The position numbers and the translations under genes are program-made. The notes beneath the pieces are model-generated. The model was not told the DNA's origin. It searched no databases and was given only the letters and a program-made list of their open reading frames with translations. This document shows positions 1,251 through 44,463 of a stretch of DNA of 64,000 nt, piece after piece (the first letter of the stretch is position 1; every line of letters begins with the position of its first letter). Source of the stretch: Eretmocerus hayati (Eukaryota > Arthropoda > Insecta > Hymenoptera > Aphelinidae); contig CM056744.1 of assembly GCA_029851415.1 (NCBI GenBank), positions 13,957,268 through 14,021,267 on the forward strand, in the 5' to 3' direction.

Positions 1251-3334
1251 CCAGTCTGTAATAATGCAATTTTCATTAGTGACAGTCCTTGCGTGAGTAA
1301 TTCCACGTCAATTCAGCAAGGTTTGCTCCGACCATTTTTTTTATCCCTCCATAGGTTTTTTCCCGTTTCATAGTGTTGATAGAAGATAGTTCCAACAGTC
1401 TATAGGGCCAAAAAAATTTTCTTGCATGACCTACGTCTATGGAGTGGTTTTGTCATAAATCAAAGATTTAAAACATTGTCTCAGTAATTTGCATATAACT
1501 TTTGACTATCCTCACCAATCGCGATTCGGCATACGGCATCCGGAAGAAGGGTCGAGAACCTATCGATTTATCACCTGCAGAGCCTTCTAAAAGTCGTTCT
1601 GGTCCTTGCCAGACTCAAAATAATCTTGGATTCACGGTGTAGCTCACATATTCTTTGACTCCCCATCCCCCCCCCCCCCCCCCCCCAAGGAAAAATTTTA
1701 AAAAATTTTTTTCGATTGATATTGTTCTAAACTACAAGCAAAAAAAAATTGGAGTATTTCTTCTGAGATATGGCTTCTCTGGAATTTTCTTTGTGTGTGA
1801 AAATGTCAAAAAAGTAGAAAATGATTTTTCATGAAGACGGGACTCCTTGCAGAGCTCTGAATTTATTTTCATCGTGTTTGCCATGTCATTGCACATTGGA
1901 GATGTATTTTTTAAGAATTATTTGAGTCATTAAAAGTCGTCAAAACCTTGAAAAAGTATTACCAAGGCACTTCTATGGATAGAAAATAGCATCCCCAGTA
2001 TACCCACTAGATTGTGGTGATCTGAAACTATTTTGAAACGATAGCCCCTGGAATTTCCTTCAGCATAACTCATTGTAGAAGTCTGTTTGATGCACTAGGA
2101 GTGGATTTGTAACCACTCGAATCAAAACAAGAATGTCAAGAATCAAATCTGTGAGCCCTACGTGGCCTTCTCATAACTTCGAAGACTCTTTAGCAGTTGC
2201 GTACCATATCATTCGACGGAATCGACTTTGGCAATAGGTTTTTTGGAAGGAAATTGACTCAGCTTTCGATTCGGAATGGTATTGAGAGCATAGAGCTGGA
2301 CCCATGGGCAGATGATTCGCGTTTAACAAACGATATTTAGTTAACAGTTCTGTTTCTCTTCCATAATGGTGGATCTCCTGCCCATGGGTCCAGCTCTATG
2401 CTCTCAATACCATTCCGAATCGAAAGCTGAGTCAATTTCCTTCCAAAAAACCTATTGCCAAAATTGATTCCGTCAAATGATGTGGTACGCAACTGCCAAA
2501 GAGTCCTTGAAATTATGAGAAGGCTACGCAGGGCTCACAGATTTCATTCTTGACATTCTTGTTTTGATTCGAGTGGCTACAAATCCACTCCTAGTGCATC
2601 AAACACACTTCTACAATGAGTCATTTTGAAGGAAATTTCAAGGGCTATCGTTTCAAGATAGTTTCAGGTCATCAAAATCTAGTGGGTGTGCTGCGGAGGC
2701 TTCTGTTCATAAAAGTGCCTAGGAAATACTTTTTCAAGGTTTGACTCTTAATGACTCAAATGATTTTTAAAATAGTATATTTCGCACCGAGTTCATTAGG
2801 TTGTAGCTCGCTTCTACACGAAATGGCCTAAGCCATACCTGCCCATTAGGAGCAGAAGACAAGGCCAATATATTTGAAAGAAAGGAAGAAAGCTCGTTTC
2901 TGAGCGATCGGATTTCGGTCCGAGGCGGAGGCGAGGGTTGAAATAATTACTCGGAAGCGGGGAACCTCATGTGCGAGGCGCGAAAGTTATCTTTCGCAAT
3001 TTTTTATAACATCGGAAAATTGCGAAAAATACATTCTCGATGTAGTACAATGACTTGGCAAACAGGATGAAAATGAATTCAGAGCTCTGCAAGGAGTCCC
3101 GTCTTCATGAAAAATCGTTTTCTACTTTTTTTGACATTCTCACACAAAAAAATTCCAGAGGAGCCATATTCCAGAAAAAATATTCCAATTGTTTTACGGG
3201 TAGGTTAGAACAATATCAATTGAAAAAGAAATAAAAAAAATTTTTTTTTTGGGGGGGGGTCAAAAAAGATATGGGCTACACCGTGAATCAAGGTTATTTT
3301 GAGTCTGGCAAGGGCCAGAACTACTTTTAGAAGG

Positions 3335-3418
3335 TATATGTAATTAATTTTGACACTCGATCGATATGATCGGATATATCATATCTATATTATATCTTCA
3401 TAATTTACTTTTAGAAGG
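3335..3418. other. 84-bp AT-rich insertion in the palindrome arm
   Basis: The left arm lacks this segment. In the right arm it is bounded by two copies of tacttttagaagg, ending at 3,334 and 3,418, consistent with a small insertion flanked by a duplication of about 13 bp. Its interior contains overlapping gatcgatatgatcgg/atatcata palindromes. Confidence 0.5.
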
Positions 3419-3480
3419 CTTTGCAGGTAATAAATCGATAGGTTTTTGACCCTTCTTTCGGATGCCGTAAGCCAAAACGC

Positions 3481-3489
3481 GATTGGTGA
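3481..3489 (+). repeat. 9-bp target-site duplication, left copy
   Basis: The sequence gattggtga abuts the left end of the 17-kb element and recurs at 20,538-20,546. The related uninterrupted site in the other palindrome arm, at about 1,515-1,525 on the minus strand, has this 9-mer only once and continues directly from the left-flank to the right-flank sequence. Confidence 0.9.
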
Positions 3490-4451
3490 ACCCCTGTGAA
3501 CCTGGCCCGCCAAATTGGACCAAAATATGCTTGTGGTAGGCCGGAATTTGCTGAATTTGCTTGTCCAAGTCTCGAATTTTGGTCCGGCTGCGTTTTTGAG
3601 TTATGAGCCCTCAAAGTAGCCCAATTCCACCCCCACTCCTCCTTCCGTGCATTTACAGAAGTGCCCAGATCTCCGCGAATTTAGCTGCTGGAGGGACGCA
3701 CGCGGGCTCAAATTGAAGCTTGAATTTTGGGCCATCGCAAGCAAATATAGAAAAATCGAAGTAATTACGTTGAAGTACCAAAAAACTGCTCGCAGTGTCC
3801 CCGTGTATAAGCATACGGGCGGGTGGTCGGCGGAGAGGGGACAGTCGAGGGAGAAGAGGAGAAGCCCCGCGCAGACGCATCATCGTTCGAAAAAACTTGT
3901 CTGCTGCCAGTGGTGGTACTAGTTTTAAAAAAAATGGCCGCAAATGACATCTAGTGAGAAAGGCTGGTGGTGGGGGTGACATCTGGTAACATCCACAAGG
4001 GAGAGGGGAGCCAGCGGCGCGATGTCATTTTGCCCGTGCGCAGCTAACTTCACGCAATAACAAGCGCCGAGACGTCTGCTTTGGCTTGGCGTATGCTTGT
4101 ATTGCTGCTGCAAAACTTCCATCATGTCAAATAATTCGTCTCCAAACACTCGGGCTTGCATTTTCAGAAATCTCCAACAAAATTGCGTTGATTTTTACGT
4201 TGACATTGCGTTGACATTTTTAGAGCTCTTGCAGAATAATTATTTGTATAAAACATGAAAAATCTTGAACAGAAACGTATGGGAATCACACAGTTCCACT
4301 TATAAGTAGTTAATGCACTACAATTTGGTAAAATCCATCAAGAACTTTCTGAGTAAGTCTTTAATCATGATAGCTTTTCAAAAATCAAATGATATATTAC
4401 AAATAGATCCCAAGCCACTCTCTTAACAAATGCAATTCATCTTATTGATGA

Positions 4452-4844
4452 TTACACTGAATCAGGCATTATCCAAGCATATGATTTAATATAAAAGGTG
4501 ATATTCTGAACTAAGTGTTTGAAACAGAATCGCATGTTCATTGTATTATCTAGAATATCGAGCATTTTTTTCATATCCTTAACTCTTTCTGACAGTTTAT
4601 ACATGTTTTCAATTGATTTTGATAGTTCTTCACACCTTGCCATGAGTTGGTACACTGACTTGATGTTGTGATCAGGGGCTTCACAAGTCTTGCACACTGC
4701 GTCACAATCAGTAATAGATTTCCAAGCATCAAACAGTCAGAGCAGATGCACTACGCAGTATGGCAGCAAGATTTTCACTGGTAGAGTCGACTGATGTAGC
4801 TATTTTTCTTGCTTCATTCTCAAGTTTATTCAAAGTAGGATGGT
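4452..4844 (-). pseudogene. Captured BORCS6-like exon (left-arm copy)
   Basis: Mirror copy of 19,183-19,575 with the same acceptor, the same frameshift and the same end. The shared frameshift shows that it arose before the arms were duplicated or was spread between them by gene conversion. Confidence 0.48.
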
Positions 4845-7251
4845 CTAAAATAGGCAAATAAGAATTTCACGGGTTTTTCTTGAGAAATTTGATAGAAGTT
4901 TGTTTCATAATATTTTTGAACTTATGAGGTTTAATGATCATAGATTTGGATGGATGTACCTAGGTTTGTAATTTCGTTGACACTCTATGAAGAACACAAG
5001 TCATATTAGATCACAAACCCATGCTTGCAGCGGTTCAGCGCTGATGGCACCTATGGATCTTTACATTGCAGCTTATGCTATTTCAATTTCACCCCTTGAC
5101 GTTCGTGATACGAAGAACTTTTATAAAATCTTGTTTGCACTGAAGTGTCTTGGGTAAAACCTAAGTAGACAATCTGCGGTAAAAAGATGAGGGGGGTGTT
5201 CAATATAGTATTTAATGGAAAAAATATATTCAGGCGAGTATATGATTCACACAAACCACTATTCAAAATATACAATTTATTATTCCAAAGCACGTGAATT
5301 TGACGATAGACTAGCATTTTTACATTCAAAGTTGAGAACTTGCTCAGAATTTCGTATTGGGTTCAATATATCAGTTTGGGTATTATCACAATCTGAATCA
5401 CCAGTGTATATTGTTGTGCAAAAGCATGTAGGCTTACAATTACAAATGTCATTGACAGAGAAATATTCATCACATATGTTCAATTCTAAAAGAAGATGAT
5501 ATCACAACATTGTTCAATAATTAAATTTTTGGAAGAGTATTCAGTCTTACATTGTAAGTTAAAATATCTCATCAGCTCATCTATGATCCACTGTTCTTCA
5601 TTGGTTTTCTGGTTAATACGCGAAGAATTCTAATTATAATTAATGCACGAAATTGCGATATTCCAACACCCAACTGAGCATTTGTTCAGTTAACACACGC
5701 TATTACAAGTCTCGCAATCCACTCCACGGCCACTATAACGAGAACAATTTGTCAACTACGATCACATGCCCATGCGATTGCTCCATAATCTTTATACAAA
5801 TGGATTCAACAAAACGAAGACATCCATCAATGTATTGCAACACTATACCAATCTGCACGCAGTCTCATACGCTATTCTAGAGCACAAGCATCTATGACCA
5901 CTACAGCCAAAATTGCTATTATAATACACCACTTCTTGCATTTTTGGTGATTTGAGGTACACTCGTTTTTTGGGTCAGTTCACTACTTATCTTTGGCTGG
6001 GAGCACTGTACTCTTGTACAGTTCGGGAAAGTGATATAAAGATACAAAACAAGCCTGACAGGTGTATAAGAATCAAAAAGATATATGATTCCAAGTATTT
6101 TGGTGATTTTTGGGAGAGGTCTCGAGCTTGCCCAGCTTATTGCACCAGGAATCACCTAAAGTTTTATAATTATATCACATCATTGTATCTCTTCATCAGT
6201 TTGAAGATTTCTGTAAGATGAACATTCTAGGTGTATGAGGATCAAAAAAATATATGATTCTAAGTATTTTGGTGATTTTTGGGGAGAGGTCTCTGGATCA
6301 TGCGAAAGTGATTAAATTACTCGTAATTTTGTAATGATAAAAGAGTGAGGAAGAGAGACAAACGTAGAGAGCTTCACTACTGATGAACATATATACGAAG
6401 ATAGAGACAGTGATACATTCAGGCCTGGATACATTATTCTGAGTTCAATACTATCTTCATGACGATCGAGCGTCATAAAATACCAATATCAGTATCAATT
6501 TAATGATTAGTCTTAGCATTATAAATAGAGATTACTCAAATCGACACGAGCACTGGAGAACAGTATTCCCGCGCGTAAATATTGGGAACACTTTTTTGCA
6601 AATGTGCATAATAAATACTTAAGATAAGGATGCTCCTAAGATTATATAGTTACACTTAAATCAATAATAATCTGATGCATCTAGTCTATAGGAATAAATC
6701 GTTTTCAAAAAAATCTACCTACACAAGAAACTATTATTATTACATTTTTCTCTCTTATCGAAGCTATATGCACATACTTTGGTTTCTCTGGCCGCATTAC
6801 TTAACGGTATATGTACAATAACGAAGTTATACTTCGCCTAACGACAATTACAACTTGTTCTGAGATTGTTCATTGATGAGTTCCTCAATACTCTTCGAAA
6901 TAGTCGAGGATACATTAGATGTCGTCAAAATCAATTGAGCTTAGAGAATTTGCCTCGTTCATTCGCTGAAAACTGTCTGGATCCATCATTCATCTTACAA
7001 GGTCGTTCTTGCATTATATCTCGTAGCCTCACAAGAATTTATATTTCATTGCTCTCATTTTATCATGACTCCTGAATCATGTAAGAATAACCAGACCTGG
7101 GATAACGTTTGTGCATGAGACTCTAGCAATTCTAGAGTTGTGCGATGGCACAACCCAAAAGAATCTGAGTTATTGAACCAATCGTCACTTCCAAAACAAC
7201 GAAATTCACGTGGATGGTGATATCCAAACCAGTAGCATTGAAGCCCTCGCT

Positions 7252-7515
7252 TCACTCGGAAAGTTTATTGCTGTCCGTAAAGTTGACGATGACACCGTTA
7301 CCAGCATCGACCCAATCCTCGGAAAAAAGTTTTTCACGTAAAACTCCGGGATTTTTCGATCGTTGACCATCGCTATCGGTAAGATCTTCAATCATGCCGA
7401 TTCGTCTAGCATCTTCGACCGAATCAGGAAGTACTTTGCGCAGAGTTTCGGGGAAGGTGAGCGCTAGTAAACCCGCGCAGATGCAGACTGAGCTTATCAA
7501 GAATCGCGGCAGATG
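7252..7515 (-). pseudogene. Captured SLC22-type transporter last exon (left-arm copy)
   Basis: Mirror copy of 16,512-16,775 with the same acceptor site, same reading frame and same stop. It is intact as an exon but has no promoter or upstream exons, so no transporter can be made from it alone. Confidence 0.68.
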
Positions 7516-8852
7516 CTGAAATTTAAACACGCGTTATATAATTTTATTGTGCTTGTTTTGGAGTTTCCAATTTTCTGATTTCTAATTATTTCTGATTCTC
7601 AGAATGAGAGAATGGGAAGGTTACCTCGTTAATTTGAGACTTCACCTTTAGGTGACGGAAAAGCTTTCGACACGAGGGAAAATCAATGACTACCTTTATT
7701 TGCAAACTGACAAAAAATTTTGGGATTACAAATTTGGAATATTTTGATTTTCACCATTTAATACCAACATAAAAATTAAAAAAAAAAATAAAAATAAGAG
7801 GAATAAATCCAAGTTTCTTTGACTGTAATGTTTGTTTGATATGTCGAGCCTTCTTAAATGAATGAGCATGAATTTGCATTATTGCACTGCCGTATCATCG
7901 TTATAATCTAATTGCATGAAGATGATCCTCGTAATAATTGTGACAAGAGTTTCAACCGCAATTCTAAAGTCCGGCCTAGACAATAATTGGGGGTTCTCGC
8001 CGTTCATAATCACTATTTTGGAAAAATACAGTTCATCTAGTTCATTTTTCCGTATCGCGAACCCTCTAACGAATCGTATTGATGAAGTTCATCTTAAGTC
8101 ATTAGCTTTCTACTACTTGCTGGAAATTTTGATGCCAAACCGTCGAATATTATGGGACAAGATCCATTCTTCCGATCAAATATCCCAAATTTCGCGTGAA
8201 TTTGCCTCAAAACATGAAAATATCTATTTCTCCGGAAAGTTCCAGAGAAAATTGTGGTCTGGTCAAAAACATCTAAGGAAGTGAAAACAACATCAGAGTG
8301 GTCGATTATAGAAATATCTTAAAAAATTTAGTATATCAAAGCTCAAAAGTACGCGATGGATAAACGCTCCAAGACACCGTAACTTGAAAGAACGATAAGA
8401 CAGGTTCTTTGCGTCGCGCAGCAATTTCGAGAAATGCATTTTGGAGAGAAGAGGGTCATCAGAACTCAGAACTGCGGGAAAACTGAACCTTTTTGGGCGC
8501 ATTTTTCTCAAAAACAAAGGTTCAGTGAAAAACATTGTCCCAGGTTGAACACTCTAATAAGCTCTAACAATGAAAAATTGAAGCCACTAATTTTTAGGAA
8601 TTTCTTGGTCATCTCTGGGTTTTACCAACTTCTATGAAGAAGATTATGATCGACTCCTGCAGCCTATTATTGAGAGAATCTTATCAAAACCTTCGATTGC
8701 ACGACTAGTAATTTTCGATCATTACATCTGATGTAAAATCTACAGCAGTTCAAATTTGAACATTTTTCGCACGAGTAATAGCGTGTTTTTGGATTTTCCC
8801 AATTTTCCACTGACTTCACTGGTCTATCCTTGTCATCTACCTGAAAGTTATG

Positions 8853-9351
8853 CTATGGTTTTCCAGAAAGAATCGCTATTTCGTGAGATTTGAGCAGATT
8901 TGAATAAGATGCATAGGTTTGGCAATCCGTTCGGTGGGTGCGTAATTGTTCGAATATGAAACTCATCTCCGATGGCGCTCTCTGAGTGGTTGCGTTACTG
9001 AGAATGTGGAAGCAGTATACGCAGAATTCAGACATATCTTCAGAACTATTGATGATGAGGTTGGCATAGGCGACCCTTGCGGCATTAGGGTTGAACTTTG
9101 TATTGAACGGTAAGCGCTTAGCTTCCTTGTCCATGTGCTCAATAGCAAGGATCCCACAGTTGAAGCTATCGGATTGATACTTCCGGCGATCTTTTCGTAA
9201 CCGGAATTTCCAACTGTGTATCTTTGTTAAAGAGTTCTCAACTCCGTACGCCCCGCACGAGGTGATGAAACGCTGGAAATGAAACTGTACAAAGTTCATG
9301 GTCAGTCGCATTGTTCTCTCATCTCCCTTGAACGAATCCATGAGCGAGTAC
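8853..9351 (-). pseudogene. Truncated Ulp1 protease copy in the left arm of the 17-kb element
   Basis: This is the mirror copy of 14,675-15,173. It encodes the last 162 residues of the fusion protein after the methionine of LMDSF, with one amino-acid difference (G for R, from base 9,254). It retains the aspartate-containing edge, the glutamine and the NCG cysteine but lacks the catalytic histidine and everything upstream. The sequence before the arm edge does not continue the gene. It is therefore a by-product of arm duplication and unlikely to make a working protease. Confidence 0.85.
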
Positions 9352-11081
9352 GAGAGTAGACTTCATTCTAGGTTACTTCTGATCCGAACTGTGACGGTTT
9401 TCAGAACTCCAATAATCTAGAATAACGTCCAAAAACGAATTCCAATGGTCTTGACAATTCTTTTCAGAAGTTCTTTGAATCATCTCTATCCATTGATTTC
9501 CGTCAGACTTGCGCATTGGCCGGATTTTTATAAAATTTTATATCAAGGTTCAGATAGATTATGCAAGAATCTATCGAGCCGCGCGACAAAATTAGAAAAA
9601 GATATTTTGGAAAAAGCTACAAGATGAGCTAAAGTAGAGCCATCTTCGATTAAGGAGATCAGAGCAGTCACGAAGTGATCAAAATAGATTTTTTTTCGAG
9701 GTGTACACAACATTTTGACCGGTATTGTAGATACTACATTCCTCCTCTCATATAACAACCATGATGTATTGTGGCCAGTGGTAATCGTATCCCAAATAGT
9801 AGTGACAGGACATGATGACTTTTACACTCTATAAATCGTCCGACGCTGGCGTCGTCGGCGGCAGCCGCCAGGTGAGACGATGGAGGACCTGCTGCGCCCG
9901 AGCAAATCGGTTGCGTTCCGCCGCGCCGCGATAATCCGTCGCCGGGGCACGCTTTCAATCTAAAGGGTCATAAAGCAATTACTGCTGGGGAAACTTGGGG
10001 AAACTCTGGAAAAACCATACGCCAACGCTCGAATTACTTTTCGACACAGCACAATGCTTATGTTACGTTGTATTTTCTACCCCCACGATCGGCAAGGGCT
10101 TTTTGCGGCTTGTCGAAAATTTTGCGACTCATTTCGTAGTGAGTCTTCGCCTTGAGAGCATCTTTCTGAAAGAGTGTTTCATGTGATTCTGTGTTTCCAT
10201 TTTCTACTTGCCAAAGCCAATTTTTGGCGAGATTTTCGTGGATCGTTGGATTGTTGGCTTCCGCATAGTGACTGCAATCCACTGCTGATTACATCGCCCC
10301 GTAAGTAAGAAAAATTGAGGTTTTCTATCATTGAAATTCAAAAAGAGCCCAGAAAACAGAAAACCCAAAATTGAAAAGTAAAAATATTTTATCCGTAGAG
10401 AACACAACTTTTTACATAACAGTGTATACTTTCAAATCTTTCCAAAAAATATCTTTCTGAGATAAAAAATTAAAGATGATTTACACGGAATCCTCCGTAT
10501 AAAATCGAGGTTCTATGAAAACCAGAATTTCAAAGTGGTTTTTGATAGGTTTTTTGCTCACTTTTCAGATGCGCTGAAGCGCGTCCCTCTAGATAACGTT
10601 ATTTTGGAGCTATAACGATTTGAATGTGAGAAAATTTAACGGAAAGTTTGCTAAAAAAAAATTGAAAACATAATTTTGATTTGTGTACTAAGGTCCGAAA
10701 AAAATTCGGAAATTTTTTTATCGTGTCTTTGAGAAAGTAAATAATTCCAGAATTCTATCATTTTTCGTATTGTAGTGCAATGAACTTCGATGTGAGTGTG
10801 GAGCTTTTGATCCATGTTGTGCTTTTTGATATTTTAAAAAGAAAGTATCCAAAATGATCGAAAGATTTAGGAATTTGGCTCTAATCTGATATCGATCAGT
10901 CACCCGAGTACAGGCCGATAATGTCAATTTTTCGACTCACCGCGATCTATTTCGTTACCCCGGAAAATTATCATTCTCAGCATCCACCCATACTCGTGAC
11001 CCACATTTTTCCCCTCCCTAAGGCAAATTGCTCATTTCTATCCTTAGATTTTTCGCCGGATACACCTACTCTGAACAAGGT
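9352..11081. other. Single-copy 5' flank of the transposase gene
   Basis: This is the unpaired part of the element upstream of the transposase ATG. It is AT-rich except for a GC-rich island at about 9,838-9,955 that contains a good donor site (gccag|gtgaga at 9,872) just after a TATA-like ctataaat (9,829). A possible acceptor (ctatccttag) ends at 11,047. These could be the promoter and first intron of the transposase gene, but the TATA-to-donor distance leaves only a very short first exon, so the model is weak. Otherwise no gene is seen. Confidence 0.3.
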
Positions 11082-14000
11082 ATGTCGCGACAGTACCGGG
11101 TACAATGGGAGAAACATCCAAAACTCACCGAGTGGTTGACAAGAGACCCTCATGACAATAAACGCCCCTTTTGCAAGCTGTGCAAAATCTTTTTTGGGCC
11201 GATGTTATCAACATTGAAGGAACATGCTAAAAAACATCCGCGGCGAATTGTGGCTTATCCAGATCCGACAAGACGATCAGTGCCACATAACGAAGCAGAT
11301 TTATCGGGAGATATTTTGGGATGTTTTGCCCCTGAAGCTGCTGAAAAAACCGCGTGCTTGGACGACACCCAGCCCATTGAACATCCGAATCTTGAACATA
11401 ATGAAATGTCATTACTTCCTGACTCACTTAATGATACATCATACAACTGCAACGACGAGCCCGGATTAGAGATTGTTAGTCTTGATGAATCGCCAGTAAC
11501 ATTTGACAAATCACTGGATTACGTTCTTCTCGATCAAGCATGTACCTTAGACCAACCATTTGGGTTTAATTTAACGCCTTACCTGAAAAAAAATAGACTG
11601 AGTGCGTCTGAAGAGGAAGAATTTGCCAAATGGATGGTGTACACGAACAACGAAAAAACTCGTGTCACATGTACCTTTTGTCGATGTGATCTTCAAGCGG
11701 TGTACAAAACTTTGTCGTATCACGATACATCGAAAAAACACAGGATCAACACGGGAGAGCTAGACCCTTGCGATGAAATGGACTACCAGAAGGTCATGAC
11801 AGAAATAAAATTCGTAGGATTAATAGTTGGCCAGAATTTATCATTCTTGCTACTCGAAAAACTGGTTCCATTCGTAAAACATACACTATTCGATTCGGCT
11901 GTGATGCAGAGGGTGTTTTTGGATCGGCACAAAGCGACGAAGATAGCCGTAAATGTGATAGCGCCTTGCCATGTAGAGAACATTGCAGATATACTTCGAG
12001 TAACACCCTTCGCACTCGAGATTGACGACCACACAGATAGCTCAAATACTAAATCAGTGTGTTTATTAGTAAGATTTGCTGATCCAGTGACTGGTGAAAT
12101 CAGAGAAGTTTTATTTGATATAATCAAACTGTTTGATTCCGATGAAAATCAAAAGGCTGACACAGATACGTTTCTTCGCAAAATCTTGGAGCCCTTCGAA
12201 AAGCATGGAATACCTCTCAAGAATATGATTTGTTTTGGCTGTGATAACTGTAATCTTATGGTAGGAATTAGAAAATCAATAAGTCAAGGGCTAATGAAAA
12301 GGATTCCAGGAATCCGAATAGTACCACGCGCTTGCCATCTCGAACATTTGTGTGCCCGAGACGCTTTGAGAACTATGCCACATATGTTCCAGATCCTCCC
12401 AAATCTCATTTATAATTATATGCACGGCAGTGACAATAGGTCGGACCGGTGGGAAGTGCTACAAATAAAATCACAACTCGATCCCCTTGCAATTTTGGTC
12501 AATTATGATATCCGCTGGCTGACGTATTTTCTATCTATATTCAGGATTTATTCCAGATACAACTCCCTAAAAGTATATTTTGGAAATGAGATAACGAACA
12601 AAAGTCATTCAGGTTCAGATGAATGCGTGTTATACGAGTTTTTCTCTGATCCCATCAATAAAGTTTACCTTCACTTCCTGGTTGAGGTATTTTCACGAGT
12701 ATATCTCGTCAACAAGCATTTGCAAGCTGTAAAACCACTCATACCCGAGAAGAATCATATTATCAGGAATTTGTACTCAAGTTTGTTGAGCATTTATATC
12801 AAGAAAGAGAGTATTGAAAATTGTGATTTATCTCAGCTCGATCCAACAGATGAGAGTAATTTGAAACCAGCTGACAAAATTTTCATCAATCAAGAGCTGA
12901 AAGATGAAATCGATGAGCTTTTACAAGGTGAAAGAAAGGAATCCTTTTACTCACAATGTCAAATATTTTTGATAGCACTATGTGAATCTTTCAAGAAACG
13001 ATTTCACCTCAGTAATGATGATTCGTTTGTGAATTTGCAATGCCTCCTCCCACAGAACGCGCTCGACGAGGAATTTCACCATGGGCAATCTCCTAATCTC
13101 AATCAACTTGTTCAGCAACTGCCATTGCTCATCCGACAAAATGACAACACTCATGTTCATGACATCAATGAGGAGTGGGCAGCTCTTTTCTCATATGAGT
13201 TTCCTGAAAATATTTCTCAAGAAAGTGATCCATCCACTTTCTGGAAGAAAATCGTGGATTTCAAAGATGCGTTCGGCTGCCCCAAATTCAAGAATGTGGG
13301 ACAGTTTGCTTTACACGCGTTGAGCACACCAAACTCTAATGCTGGGCCAGAAAGGGTATGGAGCAAATTGAGGCTAGAGAAACCCAAATCAAAAGCTAAG
13401 CAGAGATTCAAAGTGACACGTGGAGTCATGCTTAGTGCTGATTACATAATATATGTGGGTGGACTTCTGGAATTTCAGCCAACTCAAGAGATGTTCCGGC
13501 GCATGGCCATCAATCTCAATGACGATATCGTTGACGAACGATTTATTGATGATCACAGTCAATACAAAAATACTAACATTGGAGAAGAATACTTGGATGA
13601 GTGCAGAAAAGAGGAAAAATTTAGGCAATCGTTGAACGAGAGGATGAAAAATCTCGATAATCTGCTGAAGATTGATGACGGTGCTTCCAACTCATTAAGT
13701 TGCGGTGCACTTGGGGTCAAGGAAGAAGAAATGTTAAACCTGATTGAACCCAGTCTTGGGGAGGGTTTCCAAGAAATCATTCCAGGTAGCCCAAGATCTG
13801 ATGTTCTAATGAATGGCATTGAGAGTCTCGAATCGCACTCAGATTTGGATGTCATTCCTCCAGCGACGCAAGGAGACATAGTCAACCGTGAAGAAATAAG
13901 TCACCCTTGCCGATTGACTGATTTTTATCGTGAATTCGCGAACTCGTTGATGATTGAGAGAGTGGATGATTCATCAGAATCGATACGCCGAATTCCAGAC

Positions 14001-15173
14001 GAAGGATTGAATCAAACTCTTGGGAACGCCACTGTCGACACGCAACCGCATGGGTTTTGCGAAGAAATGGACATCAGCTCACCGGTAACAGAACAAGTCA
14101 TCATTATTCCACACGCAGCAGCCAGCCATACTCCCAGTGTGTCGCATTCAATGAATCAATGCGAGAATCGACCGCGTGAAAAAACATCATCTTCCTCGTA
14201 TCGTAGCAGGTGTCACCCTTACAATGCAAGGCGACGTCGCGATTTGCGAACAGTTCAACCACAAACTTTAGATAATGGTTTATTCAATAACTACGAATTC
14301 TATTTCACGAAGTTACCATACGTAGATCCCGTTACTAGAAAGTTGGCTCAGAGGACGTATGCTGTAGCAAGTATATGGCGAAATAATGGATTCGTTCAGG
14401 AAATACTTAACCTGATGTCAGACGATTTCCAGACCTTATGCTCAGGGGAGTGGCTCAACGGAGATGTCATTGATGCAATCGCCTCTATACTTGAAAGGGG
14501 GTGGAAGGAGGCTGTATTCATGAAAACAACAGATACCCATGCCTTCTTCAATGACAAGGACCCGCCCAGGGGGTGGTTCGATATGAAGTTACCAGAAAAA
14601 GGGAAAATTTTGATGCCATTCTTCTATGGGGGGAACCATTGGCTCTTGCTCATTATTAATTTGGATGAGCATGAGTACTCGCTCATGGATTCGTTCAAGG
14701 GAGATGAGAGAACAATGCGACTGACCATGAACTTTGTACAGTTTCATTTTCAGCGTTTCATCACCTCGTGCAGGGCGTACGGAGTTGAGAACTCTTTAAC
14801 AAAGATACACAGTTGGAAATTCCGGTTACGAAAAGATCGCCGGAAGTATCAATCCGATAGCTTCAACTGTGGGATCCTTGCTATTGAGCACATGGACAAG
14901 GAAGCTAAGCGCTTACCGTTCAATACAAAGTTCAACCCTAATGCCGCAAGGGTCGCCTATGCCAACCTCATCATCAATAGTTCTGAAGATATGTCTGAAT
15001 TCTGCGTATACTGCTTCCACATTCTCAGTAACGCAACCACTCAGAGAGCGCCATCGGAGATGAGTTTCATATTCGAACAATTACGCACCCACCGAACGGA
15101 TTGCCAAACCTATGCATCTTATTCAAATCTGCTCAAATCTCACGAAATAGCGATTCTTTCTGGAAAACCATAG
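11082..15173 (+). CDS. hAT-like transposase fused to a Ulp1/C48 cysteine protease (1,363 aa)
   Basis: Start chosen at the ATG at 11,082; the reading frame is open a little upstream but without another ATG. Residues 9-52 form a BED-like zinc finger (C31, C34, H48, H52, preceded by W9 and W18); a second lies at 197-220 (C197, C200, H214, H220). The hAT-like RNase H core follows: acidic cluster D315/D316/D319, second aspartate D388 in GCDNCN, the CH motif at 418-419, the RW motif at 478-479, and the terminal motif with E757 in PNSNAGPERVWS, which matches the hAT dimerisation/catalytic segment. After an acidic, Ser-rich linker, residues about 1,090-1,290 form a Ulp1-like protease with H1186 (GGNHWLLL), D1203 (LMDSF), Q1257 and C1263 (NCG), the full C48 set. 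The transposase would cut and join element ends in the nucleus; the protease is inferred to cleave SUMO or a similar modifier. The last 499 bp lie in the right arm and are duplicated in the left arm. No internal stop is seen, so the gene may be active. Confidence 0.85.
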   Translation: MSRQYRVQWEKHPKLTEWLTRDPHDNKRPFCKLCKIFFGPMLSTLKEHAKKHPRRIVAYPDPTRRSVPHNEADLSGDILGCFAPEAAEKTACLDDTQPIEHPNLEHNEMSLLPDSLNDTSYNCNDEPGLEIVSLDESPVTFDKSLDYVLLDQACTLDQPFGFNLTPYLKKNRLSASEEEEFAKWMVYTNNEKTRVTCTFCRCDLQAVYKTLSYHDTSKKHRINTGELDPCDEMDYQKVMTEIKFVGLIVGQNLSFLLLEKLVPFVKHTLFDSAVMQRVFLDRHKATKIAVNVIAPCHVENIADILRVTPFALEIDDHTDSSNTKSVCLLVRFADPVTGEIREVLFDIIKLFDSDENQKADTDTFLRKILEPFEKHGIPLKNMICFGCDNCNLMVGIRKSISQGLMKRIPGIRIVPRACHLEHLCARDALRTMPHMFQILPNLIYNYMHGSDNRSDRWEVLQIKSQLDPLAILVNYDIRWLTYFLSIFRIYSRYNSLKVYFGNEITNKSHSGSDECVLYEFFSDPINKVYLHFLVEVFSRVYLVNKHLQAVKPLIPEKNHIIRNLYSSLLSIYIKKESIENCDLSQLDPTDESNLKPADKIFINQELKDEIDELLQGERKESFYSQCQIFLIALCESFKKRFHLSNDDSFVNLQCLLPQNALDEEFHHGQSPNLNQLVQQLPLLIRQNDNTHVHDINEEWAALFSYEFPENISQESDPSTFWKKIVDFKDAFGCPKFKNVGQFALHALSTPNSNAGPERVWSKLRLEKPKSKAKQRFKVTRGVMLSADYIIYVGGLLEFQPTQEMFRRMAINLNDDIVDERFIDDHSQYKNTNIGEEYLDECRKEEKFRQSLNERMKNLDNLLKIDDGASNSLSCGALGVKEEEMLNLIEPSLGEGFQEIIPGSPRSDVLMNGIESLESHSDLDVIPPATQGDIVNREEISHPCRLTDFYREFANSLMIERVDDSSESIRRIPDEGLNQTLGNATVDTQPHGFCEEMDISSPVTEQVIIIPHAAASHTPSVSHSMNQCENRPREKTSSSSYRSRCHPYNARRRRDLRTVQPQTLDNGLFNNYEFYFTKLPYVDPVTRKLAQRTYAVASIWRNNGFVQEILNLMSDDFQTLCSGEWLNGDVIDAIASILERGWKEAVFMKTTDTHAFFNDKDPPRGWFDMKLPEKGKILMPFFYGGNHWLLLIINLDEHEYSLMDSFKGDERTMRLTMNFVQFHFQRFITSCRAYGVENSLTKIHSWKFRLRKDRRKYQSDSFNCGILAIEHMDKEAKRLPFNTKFNPNAARVAYANLIINSSEDMSEFCVYCFHILSNATTQRAPSEMSFIFEQLRTHRTDCQTYASYSNLLKSHEIAILSGKP

Positions 15174-16511
15174 CATAACTTTCAGGTAGATGACAAGGAT
15201 AGACCAGTGAAGTCAGTGGAAAATTGGGAAAATCCAAAAACACGCTATTACTCGTGCGAAAAATGTTCAAATTTGAACTGCTGTAGATTTTACATCAGAT
15301 GTAATGATCGAAAATTACTAGTCGTGCAATCGAAGGTTTTGATAAGATTCTCTCAATAATAGGCTGCAGGAGTCGATCATAATCTTCTTCATAGAAGTTG
15401 GTAAAACCCAGAGATGACCAAGAAATTCCTAAAAATTAGTGGCTTCAATTTTTCATTGTTAGAGCTTATTAGAGTGTTCAACCTGGGACAATGTTTTTCA
15501 CTGAACCTTTGTTTTTGAGAAAAATGCGCCCAAAAAGGTTCAGTTTTCCCGCAGTTCTGAGTTCTGATGACCCTCTTCTCTCCAAAATGCATTTCTCGAA
15601 ATTGCTGCGCGACGCAAAGAACCTGTCTTATCGTTCTTTCAAGTTACGGTGTCTTGGAGCGTTTATCCATCGCGTACTTTTGAGCTTTGATATACTAAAT
15701 TTTTTAAGATATTTCTATAATCGACCACTCTGATGTTGTTTTCACTTCCTTAGATGTTTTTGACCAGACCACAATTTTCTCTGGAACTTTCCGGAGAAAT
15801 AGATATTTTCATGTTTTGAGGCAAATTCACGCGAAATTTGGGATATTTGATCGGAAGAATGGATCTTGTCCCATAATATTCGACGGTTTGGCATCAAAAT
15901 TTCCAGCAAGTAGTAGAAAGCTAATGACTTAAGATGAACTTCATCAATACGATTCGTTAGAGGGTTCGCGATACGGAAAAATGAACTAGATGAACTGTAT
16001 TTTTCCAAAATAGTGATTATGAACGGCGAGAACCCCCAATTATTGTCTAGGCCGGACTTTAGAATTGCGGTTGAAACTCTTGTCACAATTATTACGAGGA
16101 TCATCTTCATGCAATTAGATTATAACGATGATACGGCAGTGCAATAATGCAAATTCATGCTCATTCATTTAAGAAGGCTCGACATATCAAACAAACATTA
16201 CAGTCAAAGAAACTTGGATTTATTCCTCTTATTTTTATTTTTTTTTTTTAATTTTTATGTTGGTATTAAATGGTGAAAATCAAAATATTCCAAATTTGTA
16301 ATCCCAAAATTTTTTGTCAGTTTGCAAATAAAGGTAGTCATTGATTTTCCCTCGTGTCGAAAGCTTTTCCGTCACCTAAAGGTGAAGTCTCAAATTAACG
16401 AGGTAACCTTCCCATTCTCTCATTCTGAGAATCAGAAATAATTAGAAATCAGAAAATTGGAAACTCCAAAACAAGCACAATAAAATTATATAACGCGTGT
16501 TTAAATTTCAG

Positions 16512-16775
16512 CATCTGCCGCGATTCTTGATAAGCTCAGTCTGCATCTGCGCGGGTTTACTAGCGCTCACCTTCCCCGAAACTCTGCGCAAAGTACTTCC
16601 TGATTCGGTCGAAGATGCTAGACGAATCGGCATGATTGAAGATCTTACCGATAGCGATGGTCAACGATCGAAAAATCCCGGAGTTTTACGTGAAAAACTT
16701 TTTTCCGAGGATTGGGTCGATGCTGGTAACGGTGTCATCGTCAACTTTACGGACAGCAATAAACTTTCCGAGTGA
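16512..16775 (+). pseudogene. Captured last exon of an SLC22-type organic cation transporter-like gene (right arm)
   Basis: A 3' splice site (tttaaatttcag) at 16,500-16,511 is followed by an open frame of 87 codons ending at a stop. Its first 35 residues contain a hydrophobic helix ending GLLALTFPETLRK and then LPDSVEDARR, the last membrane helix and start of the cytosolic tail typical of SLC22/organic cation transporters of the major facilitator superfamily. No other exon of such a gene is seen. The piece sits between transposon sequences in an arm, so it is read as a host exon, with part of its intron, captured by the element. An exact copy lies in the left arm. Confidence 0.7.
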
Positions 16776-18397
16776 AGCGAGGGCTTCAATGCTACTGGTT
16801 TGGATATCACCATCCACGTGAATTTCGTTGTTTTGGAAGTGACGATTGGTTCAATAACTCAGATTCTTTTGGGTTGTGCCATCGCACAACTCTAGAATTG
16901 CTAGAGTCTCATGCACAAACGTTATCCCAGGTCTGGTTATTCTTACATGATTCAGGAGTCATGATAAAATGAGAGCAATGAAATATAAATTCTTGTGAGG
17001 CTACGAGATATAATGCAAGAACGACCTTGTAAGATGAATGATGGATCCAGACAGTTTTCAGCGAATGAACGAGGCAAATTCTCTAAGCTCAATTGATTTT
17101 GACGACATCTAATGTATCCTCGACTATTTCGAAGAGTATTGAGGAACTCATCAATGAACAATCTCAGAACAAGTTGTAATTGTCGTTAGGCGAAGTATAA
17201 CTTCGTTATTGTACATATACCGTTAAGTAATGCGGCCAGAGAAACCAAAGTATGTGCATATAGCTTCGATAAGAGAGAAAAATGTAATAATAATAGTTTC
17301 TTGTGTAGGTAGATTTTTTTGAAAACGATTTATTCCTATAGACTAGATGCATCAGATTATTATTGATTTAAGTGTAACTATATAATCTTAGGAGCATCCT
17401 TATCTTAAGTATTTATTATGCACATTTGCAAAAAAGTGTTCCCAATATTTACGCGCGGGAATACTGTTCTCCAGTGCTCGTGTCGATTTGAGTAATCTCT
17501 ATTTATAATGCTAAGACTAATCATTAAATTGATACTGATATTGGTATTTTATGACGCTCGATCGTCATGAAGATAGTATTGAACTCAGAATAATGTATCC
17601 AGGCCTGAATGTATCACTGTCTCTATCTTCGTATATATGTTCATCAGTAGTGAAGCTCTCTACGTTTGTCTCTCTTCCTCACTCTTTTATCATTACAAAA
17701 TTACGAGTAATTTAATCACTTTCGCATGATCCAGAGACCTCTCCCCAAAAATCACCAAAATACTTAGAATCATATATTTTTTTGATCCTCATACACCTAG
17801 AATGTTCATCTTACAGAAATCTTCAAACTGATGAAGAGATACAATGATGTGATATAATTATAAAACTTTAGGTGATTCCTGGTGCAATAAGCTGGGCAAG
17901 CTCGAGACCTCTCCCAAAAATCACCAAAATACTTGGAATCATATATCTTTTTGATTCTTATACACCTGTCAGGCTTGTTTTGTATCTTTATATCACTTTC
18001 CCGAACTGTACAAGAGTACAGTGCTCCCAGCCAAAGATAAGTAGTGAACTGACCCAAAAAACGAGTGTACCTCAAATCACCAAAAATGCAAGAAGTGGTG
18101 TATTATAATAGCAATTTTGGCTGTAGTGGTCATAGATGCTTGTGCTCTAGAATAGCGTATGAGACTGCGTGCAGATTGGTATAGTGTTGCAATACATTGA
18201 TGGATGTCTTCGTTTTGTTGAATCCATTTGTATAAAGATTATGGAGCAATCGCATGGGCATGTGATCGTAGTTGACAAATTGTTCTCGTTATAGTGGCCG
18301 TGGAGTGGATTGCGAGACTTGTAATAGCGTGTGTTAACTGAACAAATGCTCAGTTGGGTGTTGGAATATCGCAATTTCGTGCATTAATTATAATTAG

Positions 18398-18750
18398 AAT
18401 TCTTCGCGTATTAACCAGAAAACCAATGAAGAACAGTGGATCATAGATGAGCTGATGAGATATTTTAACTTACAATGTAAGACTGAATACTCTTCCAAAA
18501 ATTTAATTATTGAACAATGTTGTGATATCATCTTCTTTTAGAATTGAACATATGTGATGAATATTTCTCTGTCAATGACATTTGTAATTGTAAGCCTACA
18601 TGCTTTTGCACAACAATATACACTGGTGATTCAGATTGTGATAATACCCAAACTGATATATTGAACCCAATACGAAATTCTGAGCAAGTTCTCAACTTTG
18701 AATGTAAAAATGCTAGTCTATCGTCAAATTCACGTGCTTTGGAATAATAA
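18398..18750 (+). pseudogene. Exon-like fragments upstream of the BORCS6-like exon
   Basis: Two stretches look like exons. 18,398-18,476 has an acceptor (ataattag) and a donor (gtaaga) and reads a hydrophilic peptide including NEEQWIIDELMRYF. 18,542-18,750 has an acceptor (cttcttttag) and reads a cysteine-rich peptide ending at a stop. Direct joining of the two creates a stop codon, so the model is either wrong or broken. They may be more of the gene that supplied the BORCS6-like exon 430 bp downstream, or another host gene. The protein family is not recognised. Mirror copies lie at 5,277-5,629. Confidence 0.25.
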
Positions 18751-19182
18751 ATTGTATATTTTGAATAGTGGTTTGTGTGAATCATATACTCGCCTGAATA
18801 TATTTTTTCCATTAAATACTATATTGAACACCCCCCTCATCTTTTTACCGCAGATTGTCTACTTAGGTTTTACCCAAGACACTTCAGTGCAAACAAGATT
18901 TTATAAAAGTTCTTCGTATCACGAACGTCAAGGGGTGAAATTGAAATAGCATAAGCTGCAATGTAAAGATCCATAGGTGCCATCAGCGCTGAACCGCTGC
19001 AAGCATGGGTTTGTGATCTAATATGACTTGTGTTCTTCATAGAGTGTCAACGAAATTACAAACCTAGGTACATCCATCCAAATCTATGATCATTAAACCT
19101 CATAAGTTCAAAAATATTATGAAACAAACTTCTATCAAATTTCTCAAGAAAAACCCGTGAAATTCTTATTTGCCTATTTTAG

Positions 19183-19575
19183 ACCATCCTACTTTGAATA
19201 AACTTGAGAATGAAGCAAGAAAAATAGCTACATCAGTCGACTCTACCAGTGAAAATCTTGCTGCCATACTGCGTAGTGCATCTGCTCTGACTGTTTGATG
19301 CTTGGAAATCTATTACTGATTGTGACGCAGTGTGCAAGACTTGTGAAGCCCCTGATCACAACATCAAGTCAGTGTACCAACTCATGGCAAGGTGTGAAGA
19401 ACTATCAAAATCAATTGAAAACATGTATAAACTGTCAGAAAGAGTTAAGGATATGAAAAAAATGCTCGATATTCTAGATAATACAATGAACATGCGATTC
19501 TGTTTCAAACACTTAGTTCAGAATATCACCTTTTATATTAAATCATATGCTTGGATAATGCCTGATTCAGTGTAA
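19183..19575 (+). pseudogene. Captured BORCS6-like (DUF2365) coiled-coil exon with frameshift (right arm)
   Basis: A splice acceptor (tgcctattttag, ending at 19,182) precedes coding-like sequence. The first part reads HPTLNKLENEARKIA ... SENLAAILRSASALTV. Near 19,294-19,297 the frame shifts by one base, then continues as DAWKSITDCDAVCKTCEA, then IKSVYQLMARCEEL ... MKKMLDIL, and ends at a stop. The helix-rich pattern, with a cysteine/aspartate stretch followed by a YQLMA-CEEL segment, resembles the C-terminal domain of BORCS6, a subunit of the lysosome-positioning BORC complex. The family call is from memory of the pattern and is moderate. The frameshift marks it as non-functional. Confidence 0.5.
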
Positions 19576-20537
19576 TCATCAATAAGATGAATTGCATTTG
19601 TTAAGAGAGTGGCTTGGGATCTATTTGTAATATATCATTTGATTTTTGAAAAGCTATCATGATTAAAGACTTACTCAGAAAGTTCTTGATGGATTTTACC
19701 AAATTGTAGTGCATTAACTACTTATAAGTGGAACTGTGTGATTCCCATACGTTTCTGTTCAAGATTTTTCATGTTTTATACAAATAATTATTCTGCAAGA
19801 GCTCTAAAAATGTCAACGCAATGTCAACGTAAAAATCAACGCAATTTTGTTGGAGATTTCTGAAAATGCAAGCCCGAGTGTTTGGAGACGAATTATTTGA
19901 CATGATGGAAGTTTTGCAGCAGCAATACAAGCATACGCCAAGCCAAAGCAGACGTCTCGGCGCTTGTTATTGCGTGAAGTTAGCTGCGCACGGGCAAAAT
20001 GACATCGCGCCGCTGGCTCCCCTCTCCCTTGTGGATGTTACCAGATGTCACCCCCACCACCAGCCTTTCTCACTAGATGTCATTTGCGGCCATTTTTTTT
20101 AAAACTAGTACCACCACTGGCAGCAGACAAGTTTTTTCGAACGATGATGCGTCTGCGCGGGGCTTCTCCTCTTCTCCCTCGACTGTCCCCTCTCCGCCGA
20201 CCACCCGCCCGTATGCTTATACACGGGGACACTGCGAGCAGTTTTTTGGTACTTCAACGTAATTACTTCGATTTTTCTATATTTGCTTGCGATGGCCCAA
20301 AATTCAAGCTTCAATTTGAGCCCGCGTGCGTCCCTCCAGCAGCTAAATTCGCGGAGATCTGGGCACTTCTGTAAATGCACGGAAGGAGGAGTGGGGGTGG
20401 AATTGGGCTACTTTGAGGGCTCATAACTCAAAAACGCAGCCGGACCAAAATTCGAGACTTGGACAAGCAAATTCAGCAAATTCCGGCCTACCACAAGCAT
20501 ATTTTGGTCCAATTTGGCGGGCCAGGTTCACAGGGGT

Positions 20538-20546
20538 GATTGGTGA
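20538..20546 (+). repeat. 9-bp target-site duplication, right copy
   Basis: Second copy of gattggtga, directly after ...caggggt. The following sequence (ggatagtcaaaagttatatgc) continues the interrupted palindrome arm. Confidence 0.9.
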
Positions 20547-20986: not shown

Positions 20987-23190
20987 CTGCAAATGCGAAG
21001 TTTATAAGATAACCTGCTCTTGAAGATCTTAGGGCGTATTCTGCTTCTGCGTCAGAAATATCTTGCCAAACTCTTCGTGTAGCCAGATATAACATTCTGA
21101 ACTATGATAAAGAAAAGATCATCTTAGGCAACAATTCCATGAAACCGTGAGCCTGTCATCTCATCCTTGTTAAGTATTTGGGACGCGAAGTAAATGTACT
21201 CAACGTGTCCCCCGCTTCCCCCTTAATCCGTTTTGCCAACAAGTTTGGCCTACGTCGATACTCCACAATGTACCTCATAGCTCATTTTGAAATTTGTATC
21301 ATAACCTTCAAAATGAGCTACAGTACAAAAGTAGGTTCAATCTTCTTCACCCCGAGCTTAGCCATTCCAATGCCCCTAAAATAGTATTTCATCAAACTGC
21401 ATGTAGATTTGCGTGTCGATTTGATTTGTTTTAGCGAAGTAGTATGGTACGAGCGGTTTGAGTGCTATGAGTCTTTTGTAACCATCTGCATGCAGTCTCG
21501 TAACCACTTTATCGCCGAAGAACTTATGAATTATATCCAAAGTTGCGATTTTTCGATTGAAGTTCTGATAAAAGAAATAGGATTTTTTGCAAGTTTGCGC
21601 GAGAGTGTACTCAATATGCCTCCATCATGTATGAAAAGTCTGCAGCCTAAGAGAGAGAAATCAACGTGTTTTTATGAAATTTTCTTAGGATCACGATTAT
21701 TTCGCTTCTAGATATCCAAATTCGGATTTTCTTCGCTCATCTTACAGCTTCTCTCACTCACTTTCAGGAAGATTTTGAGCTATTGTGTGAATTTTGAAGA
21801 AGTGAGGGAAAAACCAGGAGAGTGAAATAGGGGCAAGTTGGGTACGACCCCGTGTAGACTCATTCTTAGCTGATGAAATAGCTCTAGATCTGAGTTTCTC
21901 GACTCTGCTCATCAAAGTGAAAGGAGCATCTCGCAAAGCTTGATAATAAGAACTAAATGCACTGAGGTGCGATGAAATTTGTCAAAATTGATACTTCCTC
22001 AAGCTAGGATAGAAAAAATCCGGATTCGTGTAAATGAAAACGAAATCCGCCATTCCAAGATACATAAAGAGATCTTTGAAACGAGTTCTGATGAAGTCCT
22101 TTCCGGTCAATTAAGGACAAGTAGTTCGATTCACAAAGTTGATGAAAAATTTGCTGGGTGTCCTAAAACTTTTGACAGGTAGTGTTATGTCCAAAATGAT
22201 ATGCGCGATGCGCAAACTGGTATGAATGGTATGTCCCCGATACGCTAATTTCAATCGGATTCTTCATAAAACTTGGGGGACACAAAAATTATTTTCTTGC
22301 ACCACCCGGCTCAGGACTGTTCGAAATACCACCCAGTACCGGGTGCTCGAGAATTTCCTTCATTTCAGGCGGTCGCCGAGATATGATCAATTTTCTTGGA
22401 GAAGTGGACCTCAAAAATGACTGTGTCCGAAAAATCGATTGACATCCACTCTTTGCGGGAGCTCTTGATGGGTACCATGACCACTTGTATCGAATGTTGA
22501 TATGACATAATTTTCATAGAAATTATGGCATTAACTGTCGCTACTACGTGTGACCCTATAATTTAGTTGTAACTGTGATACTCCGTATATCATAGAAAAT
22601 TGCATTACAATTGTTAGGACCGTTCAATCGACTTTTTCCGTCACAGAACACTTTTCCATGTGAAATTAGTTGAGAGTGATTTCTGTTGAAGTCGTAGTCG
22701 AAGATCATGGTCAATTTGGTCGGCTCAGAGGGGTAAAATACGGCGTGTTATTCCCCATGCAAATTTTTTCATCTGTATTAGTATTTGGTTTGACATACTT
22801 GCTTAGTATTAGAGTGGGTAATCCAATAACAAGTTGAAAATGTTACAAAACAACCCACCACGCTCAGATTCTCGATCATCTTATCGTAATCCTTGCCCCA
22901 TATCTGGATGAGGAATAGGACCTGAAGGATAAATGACAAACACTGGGTAAAAACCGAGAAAAAACATGCAATTCTCCAACGGAACTCACAAGTGGTGTGA
23001 TGTATGATATGTTCAAGAGCTGAATACTGTAATATATCAAATTTCTTGTAGATTCAGGTTGATAAGGCCACAGTCCTGTCAATCTCAAGAGCAGTTCATT
23101 GTGACGACCATACAAATTCTCGTCAGTATCTATTTCGAAAATATCAAACAGTTTGACCATGAATTGGTCCATGATGTGGGAATATTTCAT
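20987..23190 (-). pseudogene. Odorant receptor OR-B, 5' exons
   Basis: Exon 1 (22,990-23,190) begins MKYSHIMDQFMVKLF and contains RLTGLWPYQPES, an N-terminal signature of hymenopteran odorant receptors; its donor is ctt|gtgagt. Exon 2 (22,799-22,942) reads an FIHQ/LIQIWGKDYDK-like segment, the second membrane region. A probable small exon reads PTKLTMIFDYD (about 22,650-22,725). The next exon (20,987-21,101) has an acceptor catag and reads RMLYLATRRVWQDIS, the intracellular loop before the third helix. Odorant receptors form ligand-gated channels with Orco in sensory neuron dendrites. The downstream exons are displaced to below position 1,250 by the transposons. Confidence 0.7.
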
Positions 23191-43758: not shown

Positions 43759-44463
43759 AGTTACGTGAAGTTGGCCCGCCACTTTGAGATGAATATATCA
43801 AAAAATCAAGCAAAAAATCTCGAATTCAATGGTGCAACTCTTTTTATTTGAACAATTTGACCATTTGAGCAATGAATGTTCAAAATGCTGAGACATCACC
43901 CCCCACCAAAACACAATAAATGCTCATAACTCCACGAATATATGCAGTGGGAAAACTTACGCAGACTCAAATTGAAGCTCTTAATTTGACCATATCGATT
44001 CAATCATCAGAACTTATCACTATTCACACTAAATTGTTTAAACAGGCTGGAAGGAGTCCCCATGTATAAGGTATAGGCAGGTGCCGACTGGTGGGGACCA
44101 TGCGGAATATGTGTGCTCCTCCTTCGCTGCCTCTCCTCTGCTGGCCTACACCTCATACATGGCGACTTCTCCCAGTCTGTTTAAACAATTTAGCGTGAAT
44201 AGTGATAAGTTCTGATGATTGAATCGATATGGTCAAATTAAGAGCTTCAAATTGACTCCCCCCGGGTTTTCCTACTGCATATATTTGCGGGGTAATGAGC
44301 GTTTATTGTGATTTGGTGGGGGGTGATATTTTAGCACTTTGAAAATTCATTGCTCAAATGGTCAAATTATTCAAATTAAAAGAGTTGCACCATTAGATTC
44401 AGGATTTTTTGCTTGATTTTTTGATATATCCATCTCAAAGTAGCGGGCCAACTTCACGTAACT
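43759..44463. mobile_element. 705-bp non-autonomous relative of the 17-kb element
   Basis: It is a foldback whose arms (about 43,759-44,075 and 44,145-44,463) are inverted repeats. It is flanked by the 9-bp duplication cctcaacgg (43,750-43,758 and 44,464-44,472). The terminal sequence agttacgtgaagttggcccg resembles the 17-kb element end, sharing gtgaa..tggcccgcca. Further in, both elements share ctcataact, ctcaaattgaagct and gtccccRtgtataag in the same order and orientation. It has no gene and presumably moves by using the fusion transposase or a relative. Confidence 0.75.

Follow-up and report, generated by a model that had tools for sequence, protein, structure and literature searches.

A 17,048-bp palindromic element (the giant element, 3490-20537) lies in a 64,000-nucleotide stretch of the genome of Eretmocerus hayati (C4:13957268-14021267, contig CM056744.1; hereafter the window), and it is probably a chimera of two transposons that was made palindromic by one copying event. 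The outer of the two, family E, supplies 418 bp at each end; the inner one, element H, supplies the remainder of the arms and appears to be of the hAT type. E. hayati is a whitefly parasitoid, and its published assembly is described in the genome report as built from PacBio HiFi reads with HiFiasm (PMC10482854). Our genome-wide searches covered the 692,130,109-bp assembly in its 17 pieces. Positions without a prefix are those of the window, and offsets are counted inwards from the outer ends of the giant.

Comparison of the window with itself by BLAST gave a single long near-perfect inverted pair, 3490-9351 and 14675-20537, at 99.949% identity. The arms are 5,862 and 5,863 bp long and make up 68.8% of the 17,048 bp; walked base by base, they differ by two mismatches (9254 and 9276) and one indel in an A-run (7789). 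A first-pass annotation of the window had proposed an element of this size and position with near-identical arms of about 5.86 kb, an exact mirror symmetry and an arm share above two thirds, and all of this is borne out. Both mismatches fall within the innermost 98 bp, with a chance of about 3e-4, a post hoc figure to which we give little weight. The outer end of the left arm is ACCCCTGTGAACC and that of the right arm is its complement; a search of the window for the 22-bp end motif with 3 or fewer mismatches located the two giant ends and nothing else (shuffle mean 0.00). The centre between the arms (9352..14674, plus strand) is single-copy. Within it lies a dispersed repeat (10311..10725, plus strand; 77-88% identity), whose other genomic places are mostly inverted pairs among the best 40 of 1185 candidates.

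The giant is flanked by a 9-bp target duplication typical of E, GATTGGTGA, at 3481..3489 and 20538..20546, as found by the base-by-base walk and a direct-repeat scan. A paralogous empty site at 1288..1594 (minus strand; 88-90% identity) joins both flanks with one copy of GATTGGTGA: it matches the left flank at 90% over 83 bp and the right flank at 88% over 236 bp, and the two halves have precisely those 9 bp in common. When the window was scanned for 9-bp direct repeats next to 16-bp inverted ends with at least 13 of 16 bases matching, three matches were returned, namely the giant, a relative at 43759-44463, and one nested in that relative's palindrome. Variants with 8-bp and 10-bp repeats returned 28 and 6 matches; those listed (25 of the 28 in the 8-bp case) are self-complementary words in the giant arms, with the exception of a 10-bp match at 1860-3079. 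The clean target duplication and pre-insertion site reported at first pass are thus confirmed. The further claim of a real mobile unit is not: duplication and empty site date, and prove, the insertion of E only and not a move of the 17-kb unit, and the genome searches found no second full 17-kb copy.

The outer 418 bp are a separate transposon family, unrelated to H. With 1,001 bp of the left end as query, at least 43 places in the genome matched (best 40 of 390 candidates scored), including the two giant arms; 37 of the others match bases 1-418 only, at 96-100% identity, while 4 match only beyond about base 418. Among the matches listed, at least 11 inverted pairs account for 22 of the 37 places. 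The outer shells of the giant, 3490..3907 (plus strand) and 20120..20537 (minus strand), are identical to each other and correspond to the terminal repeat of this family. Homology of E copies to the giant ends at offset 418, and sequence comparison with these copies found no E interior in the giant. The exact 29-bp E end occurs 157 times in the genome (76 + 81, the giant's two included; reversed control, 0), so that the absence of other copies sharing these ends, which the first-pass annotation had named as an outcome that would refute it, is not what was seen.

An exact 9-bp duplication is present in 16 of the 17 E copies of a first set and in both of two further large copies, one with a LINE-like and the other with a palindromic insertion; in total, 18 of the 19 copies tested have it, not counting the giant. 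The copy lacking it, L030 (C1:17422188-17424837), has flanks that mirror each other over 12 bp only. Fourteen of the 19 copies are 2.6-2.7 kb in size; three of these (L023, L024 and L034) have terminal inverted repeats (TIRs) of about 0.65-0.68 kb, and in L023, the one typical copy examined for frames, the longest stop-to-stop frame is 150 aa. The window also holds a 705-bp palindromic relative of E (43759..44463, plus strand) with its own 9-bp duplication, CCTCAACGG; it shares homology with the arms over their outer ~360 bp (score 34, with a shuffle maximum of 17; 0/1000). Gene conversion had been put forward at first pass as a means of keeping the arms identical; it is not needed, as recent copying suffices, and ordinary E copies lend it no support: in only 8 of 20 copies, the giant included, is no other repeat closer than the partner.

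E shows both the 9-bp duplication and the long TIRs that mark MULE and Foldback elements. At least 150 places in the genome match the MULE transposase PF10551 (best 150 of 253 candidates scored), and none of the 89 scored matches on C1 and C2 lies less than 7.7 kb from the 100 E ends listed (of 157; C1, and C2 to 160.6 Mb). Within this sample, no link was seen that would make MULEs the source of E's transposase. Many MULE matches of equal score have a 394-aa open frame (for example C1:5472161 and C2:61642254), which suggests a MULE family active recently. Separately, three E ends on the same strand stand in 178-bp steps at C2:28854365-28854749, that is, as terminal ends in tandem. Nested insertions in the E and H copies L056, L057 and L073/L074 comprise a two-frame LINE-like element, an inverted-arm element and a Copia-like retrotransposon, all named by eye.

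Each giant arm is of two parts, the outer 418 bp from E and the rest from H. On both sides CAGTGGTGGTACTAG directly adjoins E offset 418, and H starts at offset 419. The end search and duplication checks place H at 3908..20119 (plus strand; 16,212 bp), with ends CAGTGGTGGTACTAG and without an 8-bp duplication of its own here. Its left arm (3908..9351, plus strand; 5,444 bp) breaks off within the 3′ end of the transposase, present there as an inverted copy, while its right arm (14675..20119, minus strand; 5,445 bp), into which the transposase frame runs, would be the original. Both H ends carry CAGTGGTGG, a short end of the CAGNG type, which we take to be the hAT consensus. With up to 3 mismatches, the H end occurs 18 times genome-wide (reversed control, 0); these form 8 pairs, one of them the giant's, and leave 2 ends unpaired. 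The 4,174-bp copy at C1:140993398-140997571 has an exact 8-bp duplication, GTTCGTAA; two of the other six pairs also have exactly 8 bp, giving 3 of the 7 non-giant pairs. Together with domain matches in homologues of the transposase, these ends and duplications indicate that H is a hAT-type family.

The giant and the H copies at C2:156726425 and C1:140993398 show 100% identity over their outer 90-98 bp. The copy at C2:156726425 shares just this stretch with the giant; those at C1:140993398 and C2:147803k match it to offset 2100 at 96-99% identity, in partly inverted order. At C3:11530000-11549999, an H end, pieces of the giant centre and codons 1-25 of the transposase frame are scattered, partly inverted, over ~14 kb. 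H interiors and arms are, by these comparisons, rebuilt repeatedly.

The transposase frame is open over 1,381 codons (11028..15173, plus strand; first ATG at codon 19), and the predicted product is a hAT-type transposase with a C-terminal Ulp1/SENP (C48) protease and, by eye, a zinc-finger-like N-terminus. The first-pass annotation had assigned the gene to the single-copy centre; the hAT-type frame does lie there, except for its final 499 nt, which fall within the right arm. The giant arms thereby take in this last part, whose mirrored copy in the left arm (8853..9351, minus strand) has the replacement R1249G and one silent difference. At codon 1249, the right arm and two genomic relatives of the frame have AGG (R) and the left arm has GGG; at the silent position, the left arm and both relatives have TTC and the right arm TTT.

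Pfam returned four matches at E <=1 in the frame: Peptidase_C48 above the cut-off (4.5e-7), and weak ones to Dimer_Tnp_hAT, BIR and Sipho_tail. It returned no match to a P-type (THAP) transposase, the mark of Galileo and the P superfamily. The full frame has no protein homologue among 3,583 candidates; a search with the 701-aa core yielded three among 7,997 (P0001, P0002 and P0003), and an alignment search one more among 7,987, P0004, from E. hayati itself. PF05699 (Dimer_Tnp_hAT) scores 34.6 bits in P0001 and 31.1 bits in P0002, above the cut-off, and 15.0 bits in P0003, below it. P0002 is a 1,202-aa protein of Trichogramma kaykai in which C48 is just below the cut-off. The profile of the four-sequence alignment A1, in which two sequences include the protease region, matches SENP/Ulp1 structures at 1.7e-10. 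H1204, D1221 and C1281, candidates for the catalytic residues of the protease, are present; D333, D406, C436 and E775 are what we take to be candidates for a D-D-CxxH-E motif with a long insertion before the E. D406, C436 and E775 are invariant in A1, the structure model of the core being too poor to confirm them.

At the DNA level, 11100-14600 recurs in the genome as two relatives of 73-74% identity and one 81% fragment (4 of 4 candidates scored). The two relatives are near full length and interrupted, one by 6 stops and the other by one stop and frame changes. The giant frame is hence the only uninterrupted full-length hAT-Ulp1 frame found by this search, which may miss distant copies. A scan of viral_contigs gave 53 pattern matches and no relative, and Rfam and tRNA searches gave no match.

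H also carries host-gene DNA with traceable sources inside transposon ends, as Pack-TIR elements do. At 4222..4856 (minus strand; mirror 19171-19805; offset 733-1367) lies the 3′ part of BORCS6 (Pfam BORCS6, 5.5e-17) with a stop and a frameshift, 87.7% identical over 643 bp to an open frame at C2:181803400-181804900 (source at C2:181803930). The frameshift is common to the giant and the H copies L021 and L022; the piece at C3:11530000 is without it and has a stop elsewhere. Given this distribution, the capture is old. An intron acceptor suspected before the piece (4844) was wrong, as the open host frame continues through it. At 6294..7759 (minus strand; mirror 16268-17733; offset 2805-4270) lies a piece of a putative SLC22-type transporter gene, 97.4% identical over 1,476 bp to C2:38651859-38653333; it apparently spans part of the last intron, the last exon and the 3′ flank of the source gene. 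The name comes from weak matches: 18 of 20 PDB rows are SLC22-family, over one C-terminal stretch and at E 0.012-0.55, an unrelated pyrophosphokinase takes the first two rows (E 0.010), and Pfam gives no match. Frames beside the source resemble the same family by eye. A PDB search with three minus-strand frames of the left arm identified BORCS6, the remaining matches being weak and unrelated, and 7000-9351 is found elsewhere in the genome only at the SLC22 source. Since the arms are 99.95% identical to each other and the piece only 97.4% to its source, the copying of the arms is much younger than the capture.

The main anomaly lies at the junctions. A plain insertion of H into E would give an 8-bp direct repeat and leave the remainder of E on one side; the giant has neither. 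On either side H meets E at offset 418, the 8-mers next to it are reverse complementary, and the E interior is missing. Because two independent deletions are unlikely to have stopped at one and the same base left and right, we infer that one side was copied onto the other. The right side would be the template, since it is the right arm that the transposase frame enters from the centre.

Events probably ran as follows. E, a transposon with long repeats that spreads with 9-bp duplications, entered this site, where its ends stand and the empty paralogue is present. An autonomous H, with CAGTGG ends, an 8-bp duplication, the hAT-Ulp1 transposase and the BORCS6 and SLC22 DNA already aboard, would then have landed in this E, at the border of offsets 418 and 419 in one of its terminal repeats. 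While a break or an excision gap was being repaired, a new strand that had copied the left E repeat could have switched to the inverted right repeat and copied inwards through the 418 bp of E, the H end and ~5.4 kb of H to about codon 1216, after which the centre was joined. The mirror of the right side would thereby have replaced the E interior, the original left side of H and its 8-bp duplication. In the right copy the transposase is open, and the left one has a stray replacement change; the frame may still provide transposase for H. The copying is compatible with repair of an excision gap, with a break within the element and with a stalled fork.

Several observations weigh against this account. 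The intermediate, an E with a plain H inside, was not found in the genome searches, and the order of H insertion and copying is itself one that we infer. A duplication is absent in 3 of the 7 other H pairs and is 6 bp in one, so that its lack in the giant is not unique; arms of ~0.7-1.1 kb in the H copies at C2:147803k and C1:140993k mean that long H arms might predate the event. Dimer_Tnp_hAT in the frame itself reaches only E 0.073 (13.3 bits against a cut-off of 21.4), and the structure model is poor, with a predicted local distance difference test score of 50.3. The transposase is not encoded in the other H copies examined (L021, L022 and C2:156726300-156740350), and the 20 kb examined around each of the two broken transposase relatives show ends like those of neither H nor E; it is thus the giant and C3:11530000-11549999 that tie the H ends to this transposase.

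The first-pass annotation treated the whole as one hAT-like element with giant TIRs of 5.86 kb, moving as a unit. An exact palindrome with a target duplication and an empty site is what such an element would show, but the outer 418 bp form a multi-copy family of their own, whose members have other interiors and 9-bp duplications, hAT-type ends are found at 3908 and 20119, where H begins and ends, and there is no second full copy in the genome: the transposase part recurs as 73-81% relatives, 7000-9351 as the SLC22 source and the rest as pieces. We therefore abandon that view as quite improbable. Also improbable, if slightly less so, is a jump of H into the middle of a short E that was already a perfect palindrome, which would make copying at the junction unnecessary; the window does hold a palindromic E relative, at 43759-44463, but an 8-bp hAT duplication should be a direct repeat, whereas the 8-mers beside H are reverse complements, and the 5.4-kb H arms would be left unexplained.

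An assembly artefact, from a hairpin read or collapsed repeats, has to be considered, as near-perfect palindromes are a known class of such errors. Here, however, each flank corresponds to its own half of one empty site, the duplication lies precisely at the E ends, and the arms differ by two substitutions and one indel; moreover, the genome report gives PacBio HiFi with HiFiasm as the basis of the assembly (PMC10482854). We regard an artefact as highly improbable. Finally, the composite could have been built elsewhere and then have jumped here as a 17-kb E element, E transposase acting in trans on the 418-bp ends. These ends are intact and the 9-bp duplication surrounds the whole, but the composite is single-copy and formation in situ accounts for the same site in fewer steps, which leaves a jump unlikely. 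The reading that we prefer remains a chimera made palindromic where it stands. Tentatively, and with more doubt than confidence, we suggest a composite of two systems: an autonomous hAT that, through palindrome-forming repair, gained symmetric and intact ends from an unrelated superfamily, with a cargo (transposase and mirrored host exons) movable in principle by either transposase and with arms that serve as mutual repair templates.

Elsewhere in the window, inverted or self-inverse repeats of 73-87% identity occur at 1909-2772, 45235-46023, 48057-48197 and 55031-57728, the region being rich in hairpin-type repeats. Two intron-poor frames, 49584-50576 and 52442-53461, look by eye like divergent ionotropic receptors; the first alone matches Lig_chan, below the cut-off (E 0.0052), and 52442-53461 has no Pfam match. 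Beside the giant, 22626-23579 and 41840-42796 form a direct duplication at 80% identity within a larger related pair, and 61375-62030 is a degenerate CCAT-type tandem array with strong strand skew.

Very long inverted repeats, end exchange and gene capture are usually deduced from decayed copies. The giant would represent a young event whose parental parts (E ends, H ends and a gene source) are traceable in the same genome, with a specific signature: a mirrored foreign end without the target duplication of the inner element and without the interior of the outer one. A template switch at a shared terminal repeat would be a testable route for the exchange of ends between superfamilies. Our search of the open-access transposon literature, at the level of titles, abstract openings and passages, returned no hAT with such arms.

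Among known systems, E resembles long-TIR MULE/Foldback elements such as Muta1, as portrayed in sections of PMC5225508, in its 9-bp duplication, long TIRs and many transposase-less copies; unlike Muta1-type elements, it has no linked MULE transposase (best 150 of 253 matches; 100 of 157 ends). For scale, an excerpt of an arthropod MULE survey gives 1,193 bp as the longest TIR and 9,972 bp as the longest complete element (PMC13359780). Passages on plant MULEs describe elements with external as well as internal pairs of TIRs, of which only the external one is flanked by a duplication, as in the giant (PMC3310237); there, both pairs are similar MULE TIRs, whereas the giant combines a 9-bp and an 8-bp family and has 69% of its length in arms. 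Animal Pack-TIRs, of which 208 of 370 are hAT according to sections of PMC8277862, are likewise DNA transposons with host DNA, and gap-filling with template switching is proposed there for most single-copy cases. The captured pieces of the giant differ from these in lying in mirrored arms, as two copies, beside an open transposase frame.

The closest parallel is Galileo, a P-superfamily element of Drosophila. According to the passages of PMC4168063 drawn on here, its repeats grew by taking in internal sequence, among it 69 bp of the transposase 3′ end in one copy and >500 bp in another, and also recruited pieces of foreign transposable elements, the longest repeats being 4,246 and 4,680 bp. 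The giant's arms include a transposase 3′ end in the same way. Galileo's transposase, however, is P-type, and its longest copy is described there as without a transposase segment (PMC4168063), whereas the giant has an open hAT-Ulp1 frame, 5.86-kb arms and outer ends of another family with another duplication length. The giant would thus carry a trait termed unique to Galileo, in the portions of the literature compared, over to a hAT-type element, and with arms longer than in any of those cases.

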